A stretch of DNA of 64,000 bases from Nilaparvata lugens (lineage: Eukaryota > Arthropoda > Insecta > Hemiptera > Delphacidae): positions 101,550,051 to 101,614,050 of the forward strand of contig NC_052504.1 of the NCBI RefSeq assembly GCF_014356525.2, written 5' to 3'. The first letter of the stretch is position 1. Each line of letters starts with the position of its first letter. Shown here one piece after another: positions 5,040 to 19,070 of this stretch. A model generated the notes under the pieces. The model had not been told where the DNA came from. It did not search any database and saw only the letters and a program-made list of their open reading frames with translations. A program made the position numbers and the translations under genes.

Positions 5040-5880
5040 ATATCAGCCAAGTTAGTAATAAAAAATCTCAAGACTCATATATTTTGCCTACATTCAATCA
5101 TTTTGCAATATAGAATAAAAATTTGGGGTGGAACATACTCAAACCACTTGGAAAAACTTTGTAATTCAAAAATACCTTATAAGAGCTATATTGGGGAAAA
5201 CCAGACTCTATCCAAGTGAGTACCTGTTTAGTGAGCTAGATTTTAACTGTCAGGCAGCTTTACATAAAAAAAATTTAATCATCTACATAAATAAACACAT
5301 GAATCTTTTCAACCTGCGTGTTTCATCGTATAACCTCCGTCCCTCATCCATTACTTTTCAAATTACAGATACTATTTTATCAATTTGTAGAAAACAATTT
5401 TTATATCAGGTATCAAAGCTCATCATGTTATTCCTAACCATTTATCACTATAAATTGAATAGAAAACTGCTAATTGAAATTCATACATGGATAATCTCGA
5501 ACAATGTAATTTTGGCAATGTAATTCCTCATAGCTTAGTATAAAGACTTCTCATGTTTTTTATGTAATTTTCAACTATTCTTTACTTTCCCCTATGCCTT
5601 CAGTCTGCTCTTTCTCTTCCCTTCCTCACTCACTTTTTCTTTTCCATATTTCTTATTATATCCCATTATTATTCTCTTGTACTGTTGAGCATTGAACACT
5701 CGGCCTCTGCGCTCAGGTTCCTCGAACCTTGCAGGGACTTCCCGTTTTTAATATAGTTATGTATAATCCTATTAATGGTATTTTTCTTTTTCATTTTATA
5801 TTGTATTTCACTTTTTCATTTATAACCATTTTTGTCATTGTAATTATGTTTTTGGGACAAATAAAGATTTGATTTGATCT
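5040..5880 (+). mobile_element. Degenerate non-LTR retrotransposon 3' fragment
   Basis: Around 5110-5210 one frame reads IWGGTYSNHLEKLCNSKI, the W-G-G block typical of the C-terminal region of CR1/Jockey-type reverse transcriptases. A neighbouring frame (5128-5520) continues with FSELDFNCQAALHKKNLIIY and NLRVSSYNLR-like sequence seen in the same region of these proteins. The element ends near 5880 with GGGACAAATAAAGATTTGATTTGATCT, a polyadenylation-like signal followed by a short-repeat tail. Frameshifts and stops are present; it is a relic. Confidence 0.65.
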
Positions 5881-6421
5881 AGTTGTGTTTATATAAAACT
5901 GTATAAAGAAGATGCTAGTAATTTCAGTTATAATAAGGCTTATTTTCATTTGTATTAATCAATAAAATTTAGTTTGTAATTATTCATAAAAACCCAATCA
6001 AACAGCTTTGTCCAAGTGAATCCGTGGGGTAATTGGTCGCACGCGTTTCTCATGAATGTTATGTTACTAGTTTAAGACAATTTTTTGTTCTCAACACCGA
6101 TGAAGATTTTCCACTTAATTTTGAAAAAAAAAATTACTTAATCATTCTAATTTTTATGCTTCCTGGACATAAGAAGATTGCATTCTACAACACAAAAATT
6201 TCCCCGGTGCAAACCAAGGGCTATTCGATAGTCTCAAATGTTCAATTTATCTGTGATTCAAGTTATCCCGGTCAATCTGATCGGATATTAGTCTTAATTT
6301 ATTGTTGTTTCTGTTAATAATGATCAATTTCATCTCGAATATATTTTATTCGCCAAGAAATTTTTTGTTTGTTTATTTAATATTTAGTACAGTACGGTAG
6401 CATTATACTTATATTTATTTT

Positions 6422-13572: not shown

Positions 13573-14341
13573 TATAAAAGCGAAATGGCACTCACTCACT
13601 CACTGACTAGTCACTCGCAGAACTAAAAATCTACCGGACCAAAAACGTTCAAATTTGGTAGGTATATTCAGTAGGCCCATTAGAGGCGCACTAAGAACGT
13701 ATTTGGAAAAATTTCCATAGATACGCCCAAAATCTGCGTTTTTCCAGCGTTTTTAGCGTTTTCTCAGCTTTATTGAGAACAAATAACAGAAAATGTTCAA
13801 ATTTAGTACAGAAGGTCAGCTAGGGTGTAATAATGTTGTGTTAGAAGGGATTTGTAATAACGTCGAAGATACGCCCAAAATTAGCGTTTTTTGCTTTTTC
13901 TCAGATTTATCGAGAACAAATGAACAGAAATTGTTCAAATTTAGTGCAGAAGCTAAGCTAGGGTGTAATAATGCTGTGTTAGAAGGAATTTGAAATAACG
14001 CCAAAATCTGCTTTTTTCCAGCGTTTTTTGCTTTTTCTCAGCTTTATCGAGAGCAAATGAACAGAAAATGTTCAAATTTACTACAGAAGCTCAGCTGGGG
14101 TGTAATAATGTTGTGTTAGAAGGAATTTGAAATAACGCCAAAGATACGCCCAAAATGAGCGTTTCTCCAACGTTTTTCTCAGATTTTCTGCGTTTTCTCA
14201 GTACTTTGACTTTCTGTTGGAATGAAGAATGCTCAAATGAAAAATGCAGGCGAGCGAAGCGAGTCCGCTGATCTCATTTTTGGACGATCCAGTCGGGGTC
14301 CAGGGGGCGAGCCCCCTTGCTAGACGGATATGGCGAGCGAA
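13573..14341 (+). mobile_element. Helitron-like repeat B, plus copy
   Basis: It starts around TATAAAAGCGAAATGGCACTCACTC and ends GACGGCTAG followed by T, fitting the Helitron rule of a CTRR end inserted before T. The interior is made of imperfect tandem units of about 125 bp (GAACAAATGAACAGAAA... GTGTAATAATGTTGTGTTAG... GATACGCCCAAAAT). Near the 3' end are a G-rich hairpin, AGGGGGC-GA-GCCCCCT (about 14301-14316), and GGCGAGCGAAGCGAGCC. It is non-autonomous, with no Rep/helicase. An inverted sister copy lies at 14532-15325 plus 18898-19070. Confidence 0.6.
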
Positions 14342-14531
14342 GCGAGCCTGACGGCTAGTCTAACTATAAAGCTAGATTTCCACATATCAGTAATATTATC
14401 CGCGTCTGGTTCAGTGAAAATAATATTCTTCCATGAGTTTTAATGGCACTATTCACACTCAGTATGAATATTCCCATTACAGTTCACGTGGAGAATATTT
14501 CACTAAACTGGACATAGACTTTTATACTACT
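14342..14531. repeat. Spacer between two inverted Helitron-like copies, itself palindromic
   Basis: About 190 bp with an imperfect inverted repeat: TCAGTGAAAATAATATTC and CCATGAGTTTTAATGGCA on the left pair with reversed versions (GAATATTTCACTAAACTGG) on the right. No gene. It could be a small foldback element or the fused flanks of the two insertions. Confidence 0.5.
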
Positions 14532-15325
14532 GACTAGCCGTCAGGTTCGCTTTGCTGCCCTATCCATCTGGCCAGGGGCTTCGCCCCCTGGACCCCTGAC
14601 TGGATCGTCCAAAATTGAGATCAGCGGGCTCGCTTCGCTCGCCTGCATTTTTCATTTGACCATGCTTCATTCCATCAGAAAGTCAAAGTACCAAATTTGA
14701 ACATCTTCTGTCTATTACTTGATGAAAGAACTGAGAAAACGCAAAAAACCGCTAATTTTGTCGTTATTGCAAATTCCTTCCACACAACATTATTTCACCT
14801 TAGCTGAGCTTCTGTACTAAATTTGAACAATTTCTGTTCATTTGTTCTCATAAATCTGAGAAAAAGCATAAAAAACGCTTGAAAAATGCTAATTTTGGGC
14901 GTATCTTTGACGTTATTGCAAATTCCTTCTAACACAATATTATTACACCCTAGCTGAGCTTCTTTACAAAATTTTAACATTTTCTGTTCATTTGTTCTTG
15001 ATAAAGCTGAGAAAACGCTAAAAAAACGCTGGAAAATCGCTAATTTTGGGCGTATCTTTGTCGTTATTGCAAATTCCTTCCACACAACATTATTTCACCT
15101 TAGCTGAGCTTCTGTACTAAATTTGTACATTTTCTGTTCATTTGTTCTTGATAAAGCTGAGAAAACACAGATTTTTGGCGTATCTTTGGCGTTATTTCAA
15201 ATTCCTTCTAACACAACATTATTACACCCCAGCTGAGCAGCTTCTGTACTAAATTTGAACATTTTCTGTTCATTTGTTCTTGATAAAGCTGAGAAAACGC
15301 TGGAAAAACACAGATTTTGGGCGTA
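14532..15325 (-). mobile_element. Helitron-like repeat B, minus copy, 3' part (split by insertion)
   Basis: On the plus strand it begins CTAGCCGTCAGG and contains the reverse of the same about 125-bp tandem units as 13573-14341. It stops abruptly at GGGCGTA (15325). Its missing 5' part resumes at 18898 as GGCGTATCTTTGGAAATTTT and runs to about 19070. The uninterrupted arrangement is seen at 13706-13745 in the plus copy, which proves that 15326-18897 is an insertion. The short open readings here (for example 14795-15085) are the tandem units and are not genes. Confidence 0.75.
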
Positions 15326-15405
15326 AGTAGGGTATTTGTGCCAATTGAGCATCAATTTAACACCAAGGTCAAGGTCAAATTCAAGGTCAAGGTCAATGAT
15401 GATCC
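15326..15405. repeat. Left terminal inverted repeat with GGTCAA subrepeats
   Basis: It pairs with 18825-18897. After the first 45 bases both arms enter AAGGTCAAGGTCAA-type subrepeats that differ in number between the arms. A further reversed stretch of the same subrepeats lies at 18477-18560 (TGGGGATCATCATTGACC), showing that the right end has been rearranged. Confidence 0.85.
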
Positions 15406-15420
15406 CCACTTGGATAAAAT

Positions 15421-15800
15421 ATCTACTGCAAGTAACTAAGGAGAGAGTACGACCGCTGGATATTCTCCAGCAAGAGAAGTTCACACTCTTCCCAATGCAA
15501 TAAGCATCTCAATACCTACTGGATATTCTCCAGTCAAGGGTATTAAATCCATCTATTGCAATCAAATCTAATCTAATGTGAAACCAATCTAAAACTAATA
15601 AATTGAGTCTATCTACTGCAAGTAAAACTAAGGAGAGAGTAACGACCGCTGGATATTCTCCAGCAAGAGAAGTTCACACTCTTCCCAATGCAATAAGAGA
15701 TCTCATACCTACTGGATATTCTCCAGTCAAGAGGTATTAAATCCATCTATTGCAATCAAATCTAATCTAATGTGAAACCAATCTAAAACTAATAAATTGA
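15421..15800 (+). repeat. Two tandem 190-bp units inside the left arm
   Basis: ATCTACTGCAAGTAA recurs at 15421 and 15611; each unit has two CTGGATATTCTCCAG imperfect palindromes. A partial third unit runs to about 15860. The right arm of the element lacks them, so they are either a left-end gain or a right-end loss. Confidence 0.8.
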
Positions 15801-15845
15801 GTCTACCTAGTACAAGGGTAGTGGGAGAATAAACAACTACTGGAT

Positions 15846-16440
15846 ATTCTCCAGTCAAGAGATGTTATCTCAACCACCACCCGCCCCGACTGAATTCTCT
15901 GTTGAATGAGCCCGGTATTTATAGTAATTTATCAGCATCAAAATCCAGTTCCCACGGTTTTTTGTATACCGTCTTCCACATGTTTGAACAGGTCTAATTA
16001 TTAAATAATAAAAAAAATAATTATTTAATATTGAATAATATTAAATAATAATTTAATTTATTCAATTTAATTTATTTTATTTTTATTATTTAATATTATT
16101 AAATAATTATTAATTTATTTAATTTAATTATTTTATTTTTTATATTTAATTTAATTTATTTTATTTTTTATTATTAATATTATTCAATTATGAAATAATT
16201 ATTTAATTAATTTAATTTATTTACTATTAAATAATTTCAAACAAAAATAATTATTCAATAATTGAATAATTTAAATAAAAAAATAAAATAATTAAATAAT
16301 AAATAAAATAAATAAATTAATAAATAAATTATTATTTAATTTAGACCTGTTCAACATGTTTGGAGACGGTATACAAAAAACCGTGGGAACTGGATTTTGA
16401 TGCTGATAAATTACTATAAATACCGGCTCATTCCAACAGA
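15846..16440. repeat. Inverted repeat around a 330-bp A/T-only core, with TATA-like boxes
   Basis: The arms are 15880-15990 and 16345-16435: GAATGAGCCCGGTATTTATAG and CATCAAAATCCAGTTCCCAC on the left are found reversed on the right. The core 15990-16340 is nearly pure A/T. TATAAATA followed by GGGCTCATTCCAACAG occurs at about 16410 and again at about 18755, and in reverse at 15915. The conserved TATA-plus-CATTCCAACAG block suggests promoters in the arms, but which gene they would drive is not shown by the sequence. Confidence 0.65.
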
Positions 16441-16684
16441 AATTTGTATTTTGAATATTGTATCAATAGTATTCATCTTTTGGATGAGACATTATAATTA
16501 TTTCTATTCTTATTTTTATTATATACAATAAATCCTAATCTTTGTAATAGTTCAACATTTTTGGGTGTGAGTTTTATGTTGATTTATCATTGTATTATTA
16601 TTTTTCCACTACTTGAGAATATCAACATTATTTTATATAGTTGGTGATTTTCTTACATGTAAACGAACAGTTATAGTTTCTCCT

Positions 16685-18175
16685 CGAAATTGATCAATTC
16701 ATTATTTTGATCTATTAGTTTTACCGAATGTGATCTATTCGGTTTGTATTGATTGGTAGGTACACTACAGTTTTTGGATATACATTATTTGAAACCTGGT
16801 GGTACAGTTGTATAGAACTCATACAGTATGTGACCTTCACTACCATTATCATAAGATCCTTTTGCAATATTACATTCTACTCTGATGCTATTCACACGCA
16901 TAATGTGAACTGGTTTTGTAGATATGTGCCATTTATTAGCTTCTAGCTTCATGTGTTGGAATCCAAGAATTGGAGCAACACTATCTTTCATACTGATATC
17001 AATTTCTCTATCTGCATATAACTCACACTGTAGTGTATTATTATTAGCTTTGATTTTCAGTTGACCACTTGTAAGAGATAATTTATTTTGATATAATCTA
17101 CTATATCATCCAATTCATAGACCCTACTGGTATTTTCACTTTTTTCCATTATAGCTAAACTTATCATTGATATTGTTTTCAATATTGGAATTGTATTGTA
17201 TGTATATAGATCTATTAGGCTACTTCATATTTGCTAGATGTTTCCAGTTGTACTGGTGGGAAATATCACTTACCAGTGGATTTTGATTTGCTGTTAATGA
17301 GAACATATTTTTTATACAACCACAATAAACATAAATGACCACATACTATTGAATTGTCATCGATTTCTTGATACTTCTTATAGTTGTAATGTATTGTTAT
17401 ATCTTTCATATAAGCCATAAATTCAAGTGGAGGACTCAAATTTCCAAAACTATTGAAATAGTCACATGTATTGTTACATTTAATATAACATGTCCAATGA
17501 CTTCCGTACTGCTTTCATCATCCAAATTGATTACACCATTTCTAGATCTTTGTGTTGTATTCTGGTAGACTATCTCTCATGTAGACACCTCGTAGTGGTA
17601 ATCAAGCTTTCTTGCATAATCTATTATTTCAATGTTTGTGAATGTGTGTTTTTTTTTAGAATTTTCCTCAATGTCTCTTGTATCCTCTTCTGATTCACCT
17701 TCTTCTTTATTGTTTTATTCTTATTCTTTTGCAACCCCACCCTTTGTAGGGTTTCAGAAACAACCCACACCCTTTGTAGGGTCTCAGAACAACCCACCAC
17801 CAAATTTAGTCTTGGCATTCAATAAGTTTGTTACCAAGTATGCTGATGAGCGCTCTCCAAGGCTAGCATCAGGTGATTTGACTCTTTCCCAAGCCAGGGC
17901 AGCTAGTTTCTTATCAGCTTCTGTTCTATTCTGATTAGGATTGCTATAAGCTATATCATGTTCCCGGCATGCATCATCAAGTTTATTTATTCCTTTATCA
18001 CCTCTCTTCAATCTTTTTTCAAGTTTTGTGCCAGGGCCACAAAAATTGTAGCCAGGGATATGAAGTCAACAGGTAGTAAGTCAATTGCTTTGTTCAATAT
18101 AGATCCGATTATTCCAGATCCAGACACAACCTTCTTCCGTTTTATTTTCTTCAACAATGGTTTTTCTTCTTGATC
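16685..18175 (-). pseudogene. Densovirus (parvovirus) VP1 capsid gene relic with phospholipase A2 domain
   Basis: Reading on the minus strand: a basic N-terminal segment (about 18175-18075); a one-base frame break near 18070; the PLA2 calcium loop YNFCGPG (about 18030-18050); and the PLA2 catalytic helix with DDACREHDIAY, including the His-Asp pair (about 17950-17975). The glycine-rich FGGG end at about 17790 is the usual boundary between the VP1 unique region and the capsid body. After about 800 bases with many stops, the capsid reading resumes at about 16990 and shows EFYTTVPPGF (to 16785), then a break, then TVVYLPINT (about 16745-16725). These motifs are characteristic of insect densovirus capsids. 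In densoviruses PLA2 acts in endosomal escape. Stops and frameshifts rule out a functional protein; no NS genes were found. The length from PLA2 to the C terminus (about 500 codons) fits a whole small VP gene. Confidence 0.88.
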
Positions 18176-18739
18176 ATTTTATTAAGTACATTTTTTCAAC
18201 ATGTATATATTTATTTATTCATCTATTTATTGATTCATTCATACAGTATCAAATCTTTGTTAATCTCCAATCTCCGATCTCTGCTTGAAGAAATCTGAGA
18301 TCTCCAATCACTAAAGATGTCATATCTCACTTAATATTCATTATATCTTGATAAATGATATGTTTATTGATTTGTTATTAAATTTACTAAAAAAAGTTAT
18401 TCTGTATTTTTTTTATAACATCAACAGGTTCTTCGTTATTTTGTAATAAAAAAACTAGGTTCACATTTTCATACAATGGGGATCATCATTGACCTTGACC
18501 TTGACCTTGAATTTGACCTTGAATTGACCTTGATCTTGACCTTGAATTTGACTTGAATTTGACTTTTGGTTGTATACCTAGTGGAAATAATAATGGTATT
18601 AGGCCACACATCTTAGGAAGGGGGGGGGGATTTAATTAGGCCACCACTTTTAGGGTGTGGGGGAGGGAATTGAATTAGGCCACGCCCCCCTAATAAAATA
18701 TTTTTCCTCAGTGTTTAATAGAAATTCTTGCTGTAAACA

Positions 18740-18897
18740 TTTCCTCCCTGGTCTATAAATACAGGGCTCATTCCAACAGAGAATTCAGTCGGGGCGGGGT
18801 GGTGATTGAGATAACATCTCTCGACCTTGACCTTGAATTCGACCTTGACCTTGACCTTGGTGTTAAATTGATGCTCAATCGGCACAAATACCCTACT
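18740..18897. repeat. Right terminal inverted repeat of the composite element
   Basis: It carries TATAAATACAGGGCTCATTC, then GAATTCAGTCGGGGCGGGGT, then GGTCAA-type subrepeats, and ends AAATACCCTACT. Relative to the left arm, about 440 bp (the 190-bp tandem units) are absent. G-rich stretches at 18620-18690 lie just inside it. Confidence 0.85.
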
Positions 18898-19070
18898 GGC
18901 GTATCTTTGGAAATTTTTCCAAATCCGTTCTTAGTGCGTCTCTAAAGGGCCAACTGAACATACCTACCAAATTTGAACGTTTTTGGTCTGGTAGATTTTT
19001 AGTTCTGCGAGTGAGTGAGTCAGTCAGTCAGTCTGTGAGTGAGTGCCATTTCGCTTTTATAATGTGAGAA
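18898..19070 (-). mobile_element. Helitron-like repeat B, minus copy, 5' part
   Basis: This is the missing 5' segment of the element at 14532-15325. It is the reverse of 13573-13728, including CCAAATTTGAACGTTTTTGG and the GAGTGAGTCAGTCAGT tract, and ends GCCATTTCGCTTTTATA. Its first six bases (GGCGTA) are the right-hand target duplication of the composite element. Confidence 0.8.

Follow-up and report, generated by a model that had tools for sequence, protein, structure and literature searches.

A non-autonomous, internally deleted Polinton/Maverick from a multicopy family in Nilaparvata lugens

The window analysed here, a stretch of 64,000 nucleotides from Nilaparvata lugens (contig NC_052504.1, positions 101,550,051 to 101,614,050), contains at 15326-18897 a 3.6-kb element delimited by inverted termini of 71 nt (15326-15396 on the plus strand and 18827-18897 on the minus strand) that are 92% complementary and each start with AGTAGGG. 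It is flanked on both sides by GGCGTA (15320-15325 and 18898-18903, no strand). Long inverted ends with an AG start together with 6-bp target duplications are features of Polintons, and the element displays both, its duplication being exact. The empty target is also known: when the flanks are joined minus one GGCGTA, the result approximates the reverse complement of a sister arm in which the site lies at 13722-13727. The original prediction had recognized the inverted repeats, the duplication and the existence of an empty site, and only its position for the latter (13723-13728) was one base off. The insertion host is itself an inverted-repeat (foldback-like) element, older than the insert, which spans 13573-19060 (outer ends by eye), has arms at 13611-13727 and 18898-19014 that are 94% alike, and contains 137/150-nt tandem repeats in opposite orientations. 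Within the insert, TATAAATA boxes are found at 15923 (minus strand), 16415 (plus strand) and 18754 (plus strand). Two of them, one per end region, point outward and have TCAGT, an arthropod initiator, some 30 nt further on, while the inner third box has none.

The element is composed of two blocks that meet at a deletion junction (16446-16451, no strand). The left-end block (15326-16445, plus strand) consists of GGATATTCTCCAG tandem repeats followed by an AT-rich palindrome with arms at 15893-15997 and 16341-16445, and matches other left ends (L035, L008 and L032) piecewise at about 90%. The right-end block (16451-18897, minus strand) is collinear with longer copies and comprises the first codons of a capsid gene, three further genes and the right terminus. 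These three minus-strand genes, whose ends are approximate, encode a penton (minor capsid) protein within which the VPPGF and VVYLP motifs lie (16635-17306), a putative adenain-like cysteine protease (17266-17585) and a stand-alone PLA2-like protein (17630-18193). The frames of all three are broken, and the longest open frame overlapping the element is at most 106 aa. The ATPase, integrase and PolB genes are absent, and the major capsid gene is almost entirely missing.

Intact versions of the penton, protease and PLA2 genes are present elsewhere in the genome, and in the right block of the copy at C15:44.92 they are separate ORFs of 227, 105 and 188 aa, accompanied by part of the capsid gene; in that copy, PLA2 thus does not form the N-terminus of a single long capsid reading frame. 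The PLA2 domain of the window (17787-18065) matches PF08398 over the curated cut-off (E=9e-12), and a 93-aa stretch of it recurs with 100% identity at no fewer than 15 other places (150 of 1899 candidates scored). For the penton, the window stretch from KLSL to VPPGFK equals by eye its counterpart in another copy, C1655, whose 227-aa protein belongs to no Pfam family. A model of the 227-aa protein (pLDDT 96) has the mavirus penton as its top match among solved structures, and proteins of MELD virus and of Drosophila-associated adintovirus are also matched. Pentons are on top of the structure lists, a ranking that does not settle whether a parvovirus jelly-roll capsid domain is present; no parvovirus capsid is found among the 50 listed matches, which proves nothing alone. 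The window's own penton piece gave a single chance match with solved structures (E=1). The 105-aa protein is a protease candidate that shows, by eye, NLDD...GSHW and CGHLCL motifs. Among solved structures it has a weak match to a viral cysteine protease (E=0.043), and in Pfam none. It had been proposed that the element contains a minus-strand densovirus VP with PLA2 and the capsid motifs VPPGF and VVYLP. The PLA2 signature is real, but the pieces of the supposed VP come from three separate genes, and the two motifs sit, according to the structural model, in a penton-fold protein instead.

Database searches provided further, if uneven, information on these proteins. The PLA2 query has 176 relatives at E<=0.01 (best 120 listed), several of which are from named insects, and 17 of 20 examined relative proteins are PLA2 proteins, all short. 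Query length restricts the returns of this search to 51-163 aa, so that longer VP relatives could not show and the separate ORFs in C15:44.92 represent stronger evidence. Among solved structures, the PLA2 piece comes closest to entries that bear the name 'Capsid protein' (E=4e-4) and that, from their entry codes, are presumably those of adeno-associated virus. The 227-aa protein has 132 relatives at E<=0.001 (best 120 listed, returns restricted to 125-397 aa). Rfam returned nothing for the window element at gathering thresholds and PHROGs a single weak match (0.26); penton queries found no relative in viral contigs, and the penton relative P0003 had no match in phage records. With PLA2, a few weak loci were found in viral contigs (one in one search, two in another). 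By eye, loci L001 and L002 look unlike Polintons. A third locus (L003, IMG/VR 3300007522_001028, 15.1 kb) has what appears by eye to be a stand-alone PLA2-like ORF (5877-6314), neighboured by ORFs of 439 and 1313 aa and by an ATPase-like one, and this contig may be a mid-size virus, distantly Polinton-like.

The termini of the element are shared by a genome-wide family. At least 40 near-full-length matches to the 75-bp terminus, with 91-100% identity, were found in the 1.085-Gb genome (40 of 211 candidates scored), more than chance would give; two belong to the window element itself and 38 are further termini elsewhere, while the remaining 27 of 67 matches altogether are short pieces of an internal repeat. 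The seven other end pairs (plus and minus termini on the same contig, at most 25 kb apart) were compared. Five have exact and mutually different 6-bp duplications (GTAACA on C8, CAGCTC on C4, ATTGGC at C15:44.9, AAGATT at C15:28.1 and TTCGGG in C1655), one has a duplication with 5/6 bases in common (AATATG/AATATA at C15:33.4) and one has none (TAGATC/AACTTG at C16:4.98-5.00 Mb). The latter pair may be mismatched since its right flank reappears at a terminus 43 kb away. Target duplications of 6 bp are thus a property of most of these pairs as well as of the window copy, and end-to-end lengths are 5.1 to 22.1 kb, as against 3.6 kb in the window. Two further termini, at C6:25.7 and C6:26.08 Mb (L005 and L006), have mirror-image surroundings and a near-identical flank, which suggests an inverted segmental duplication or a misassembly. 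The genome search with the 75-bp terminus that had been suggested as a check was therefore positive (many copies, the same ends, differing duplications), and the idea of a mobile unit with Polinton-type ends, as opposed to a plain viral integration, stands on these family termini and duplications.

The longer copies reveal what the window copy has lost. C1655, which is 15.35 kb end to end with TTCGGG flanking both ends, encodes a Pox_A32-type ATPase (PF04665, 3.5e-9; a second family ATPase match, 1.9e-9) and a double-jelly-roll capsid protein of 408 aa (PF21738, 2.6e-101; second family match, 7.5e-82). It also retains the tail of an integrase, chromo-like at its end (4e-4, below cut-off), the integrase core being apparently mostly gone as judged by a comparison by eye. 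Two plus-strand PolB frames in C1655 are identical to a PolB from the same genome at 66% of 346 and 69% of 70 aligned residues, and that PolB itself matches PF03175 at 1e-28, while the frames alone fall below Pfam's PolB model. An integrase frame of 309 aa (PF00665, 6.6e-10) is found in C2383, a copy represented by its left end alone among the scored termini. PolB of this type is abundant in the genome (1716 candidates, of which 91 were scored), and seven further places combine a PLA2 match with a PolB match no more than 5 kb away (match rows compared by eye). PolB, retroviral-type integrase, packaging ATPase, double-jelly-roll major capsid protein and penton, i.e. the Polinton hallmarks, are therefore all found in longer copies, but this gene set is spread across several of them and no single copy is shown complete.

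Taken together, these observations make us highly confident that 15326-18897 belongs to a multicopy Polinton/Maverick (polintovirus) family, as a non-autonomous copy with an internal deletion. It is not a captured parvovirus, since the supposed parvovirus capsid gene is three ordinary Polinton genes. Points to be counted against this reading include that no complete copy is shown, that the C16 pair has no duplication, that the protease match is weak and that the C1655 PolB frames by themselves fall short of the Pfam model. By extension from the family, the longer copies would replicate by a protein-primed PolB and insert by means of a retroviral-type integrase, giving rise to the 6-bp duplication. 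Their capsid proteins, protease and ATPase suggest that virions may be formed, of which PLA2 would be the membrane-breaching protein. The window copy keeps both ends, but of the genes only penton, protease and PLA2, whose frames are broken as assembled; its integrase and polymerase would have to be supplied in trans.

The extent of the deletion was estimated by comparison with other copies. The right block is 95-97% identical over its full length (16451-18897) in four copies and, over 16451-18421, 98.2% identical to C2383 (L043), which past 18421 diverges from the right end of the family. Past the 16451 point, the sequence of six compared copies stays in the capsid gene (C15:54.7 has an internal gap there, and C15:28.1 contributes 36 bases, extended by another comparison). 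About 10.8 kb are absent from the window copy relative to C1655, an approximate figure because the left side of the junction lies within AT-rich repeats. Both this junction and the frameshifts could be assembly errors, and the most serious competing reading, although we consider it unlikely, is that a longer Polinton copy lies here whose middle was lost in assembly. The junction adjoins the AT-rich palindrome, and local consensus quality is poor-looking. Some 2 kb of the right block (16451-18420) differ from the nearest copy, C2383, by only seven substitutions but 26 indel events, 24 of which are missing bases (23 single-base; 15 in homopolymers) and two extra bases, whereas in this part other copies, compared in four pairings, differ from one another by 1-3 indel events and 4-22 substitutions. 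However, the flanks and the target duplication are exact, the two blocks meet cleanly, and 15 pairs of other copies, compared over longer stretches with end repeats, show 0-16 gap openings (and 4-50 substitutions), so that some indels are natural to the family. Under neutral decay, substitutions normally outnumber indels. Given the excess of indels, most of the frameshifts are probably assembly error and the copy, with about 0.35% substitutions, reads as young. That the gene is 'decayed', as first described, is hence doubtful, the losses being almost all of single bases and the substitutions few. In view of this excess of single-base losses, frameshifts in this assembly call for caution, as they may be artefacts.

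Another reading is that the 3.6-kb form is multiplied as such, in trans, and makes up a small family of Polinton satellites, as its two ends and exact target duplication would allow and as non-coding palindromic elements with the same ends, which have transposed, would illustrate. We regard this as improbable and have rejected it: a 130-base probe spanning the junction has a two-sided match at the window alone (one of 40 scored places, 160 candidates), and the junction is shared by none of 20 further stretches beside PLA2 copies (11 continue into the capsid gene, three consist of right-block sequence only, five match none of three references and one matches 83 nt of left-block terminus only). 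The internal deletion by which we explain the window copy thus appears to be private to it, judging from these comparisons.

The palindromic elements deserve a description of their own. Those at C4:69691564-69701945 (10.4 kb; L038, L046 and L039) and C8:17205491-17217366 (11.9 kb; L010, L047, L048 and L009) have the family ends and exact duplications, CAGCTC and GTAACA, respectively. They are giant inverted repeats with arms of about 4.2-4.8 kb that are 96-99.8% alike, separated by a spacer of about 1.5-1.6 kb, and no ATG-started ORF of 120 aa was found in the inner stretches read (L046-L048). Their corresponding stretches are 98.4-99.8% identical to each other, and they hold patches 73-87% similar to coding Polintons, one patch overlapping a short-period repeat. 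A spacer probe identified 15 places, five of them at 98% or more, including C4 and C8; among the three further close copies, both ends were found in one, a 12.6-kb element at C15:55788594-55801202 (L076 and L077) that shares the spacer and has an exact TCTCAA duplication, whereas the sequence retrieved for the other two included a single end each. All three elements are apparently Polinton satellites moved in trans. It is tempting to speculate, although we would put this somewhat below an even chance, that Polinton ends alone suffice for copying and integration in trans, and that the genome therefore holds a tier of satellites made up of shortened copies such as the window's and of 10-12 kb non-coding, near-perfect palindromes, the latter possibly arising when a protein-primed strand folds back. 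Such palindromic relatives could make Polinton replication and trans-mobilization testable. A limited literature search found no paper on non-autonomous Polintons, from which it does not follow that they are absent from print.

The idea put forward originally, that a densovirus VP was captured between Polinton ends to give a chimera or an intermediate towards a bidnavirus-like virus, is very improbable: it would account for a PLA2 domain with a parvovirus-type loop and for its 'Capsid protein' relatives, but a parvovirus VP is rejected for this locus because PLA2, protease and penton form a Polinton gene run of three separate intact genes in C15:44.92 and because it is a penton-fold protein that contains the capsid motifs, to which can be added that this block of genes is also found in long Polinton copies, the shortness of the PLA2 relatives being of little weight in a length-bound search.

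How, then, does the element compare with known systems? With the VP1 of densoviruses and parvoviruses it has a related PLA2 domain in common, but here PLA2 is a separate gene and the capsid motifs belong to a penton-fold protein. The closest parallel is provided by the Spodoptera Mavericks described by Geisler and Jarvis. Sf Maverick 1 and 2 encode an ATPase, an integrase, an adenain-like protease and PolB along with a PLA2 protein that resembles parvovirus VP1, so that insect Mavericks with PLA2 have been known from the literature since 2018 (PMC5803895). The N. lugens family resembles them in these genes, its protease being a candidate, whereas the window copy is without ATPase, integrase, PolB and most of the major capsid gene. 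In the Spodoptera study the PLA2 protein is called CAP and no PY homologue is reported (PMC5803895), while here a double-jelly-roll (PY-type) capsid protein and a penton are present besides PLA2; PY and PX were identified as capsid and penton, respectively, by Krupovic et al. (PMC4028283). Hallmark genes are also common to the family and to adintoviruses and MELD viruses, the family being known here from genome copies alone. For Bidnaviridae, an origin from a parvovirus genome that became integrated into a Polinton has been proposed, in an account that describes the BmBDV capsid as being without PLA2 (PMC4061559). In the element studied here, by contrast, the parvovirus gene seen is a PLA2 domain only (in searches that excluded NS1), and the bidnavirus origin model, as set out in that account, is untouched by this locus. 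What looked like a missing link from parvoviruses to bidnaviruses is thereby removed. More generally, an ordinary Polinton can be behind a PLA2 match near a capsid-like protein, and a densovirus integration should be called only after a check on whether the PLA2 is a gene of its own. Since PLA2-bearing insect Mavericks and the roles of PY and PX have already been published, the window element belongs to a known kind: it is an ordinary Polinton/Maverick.
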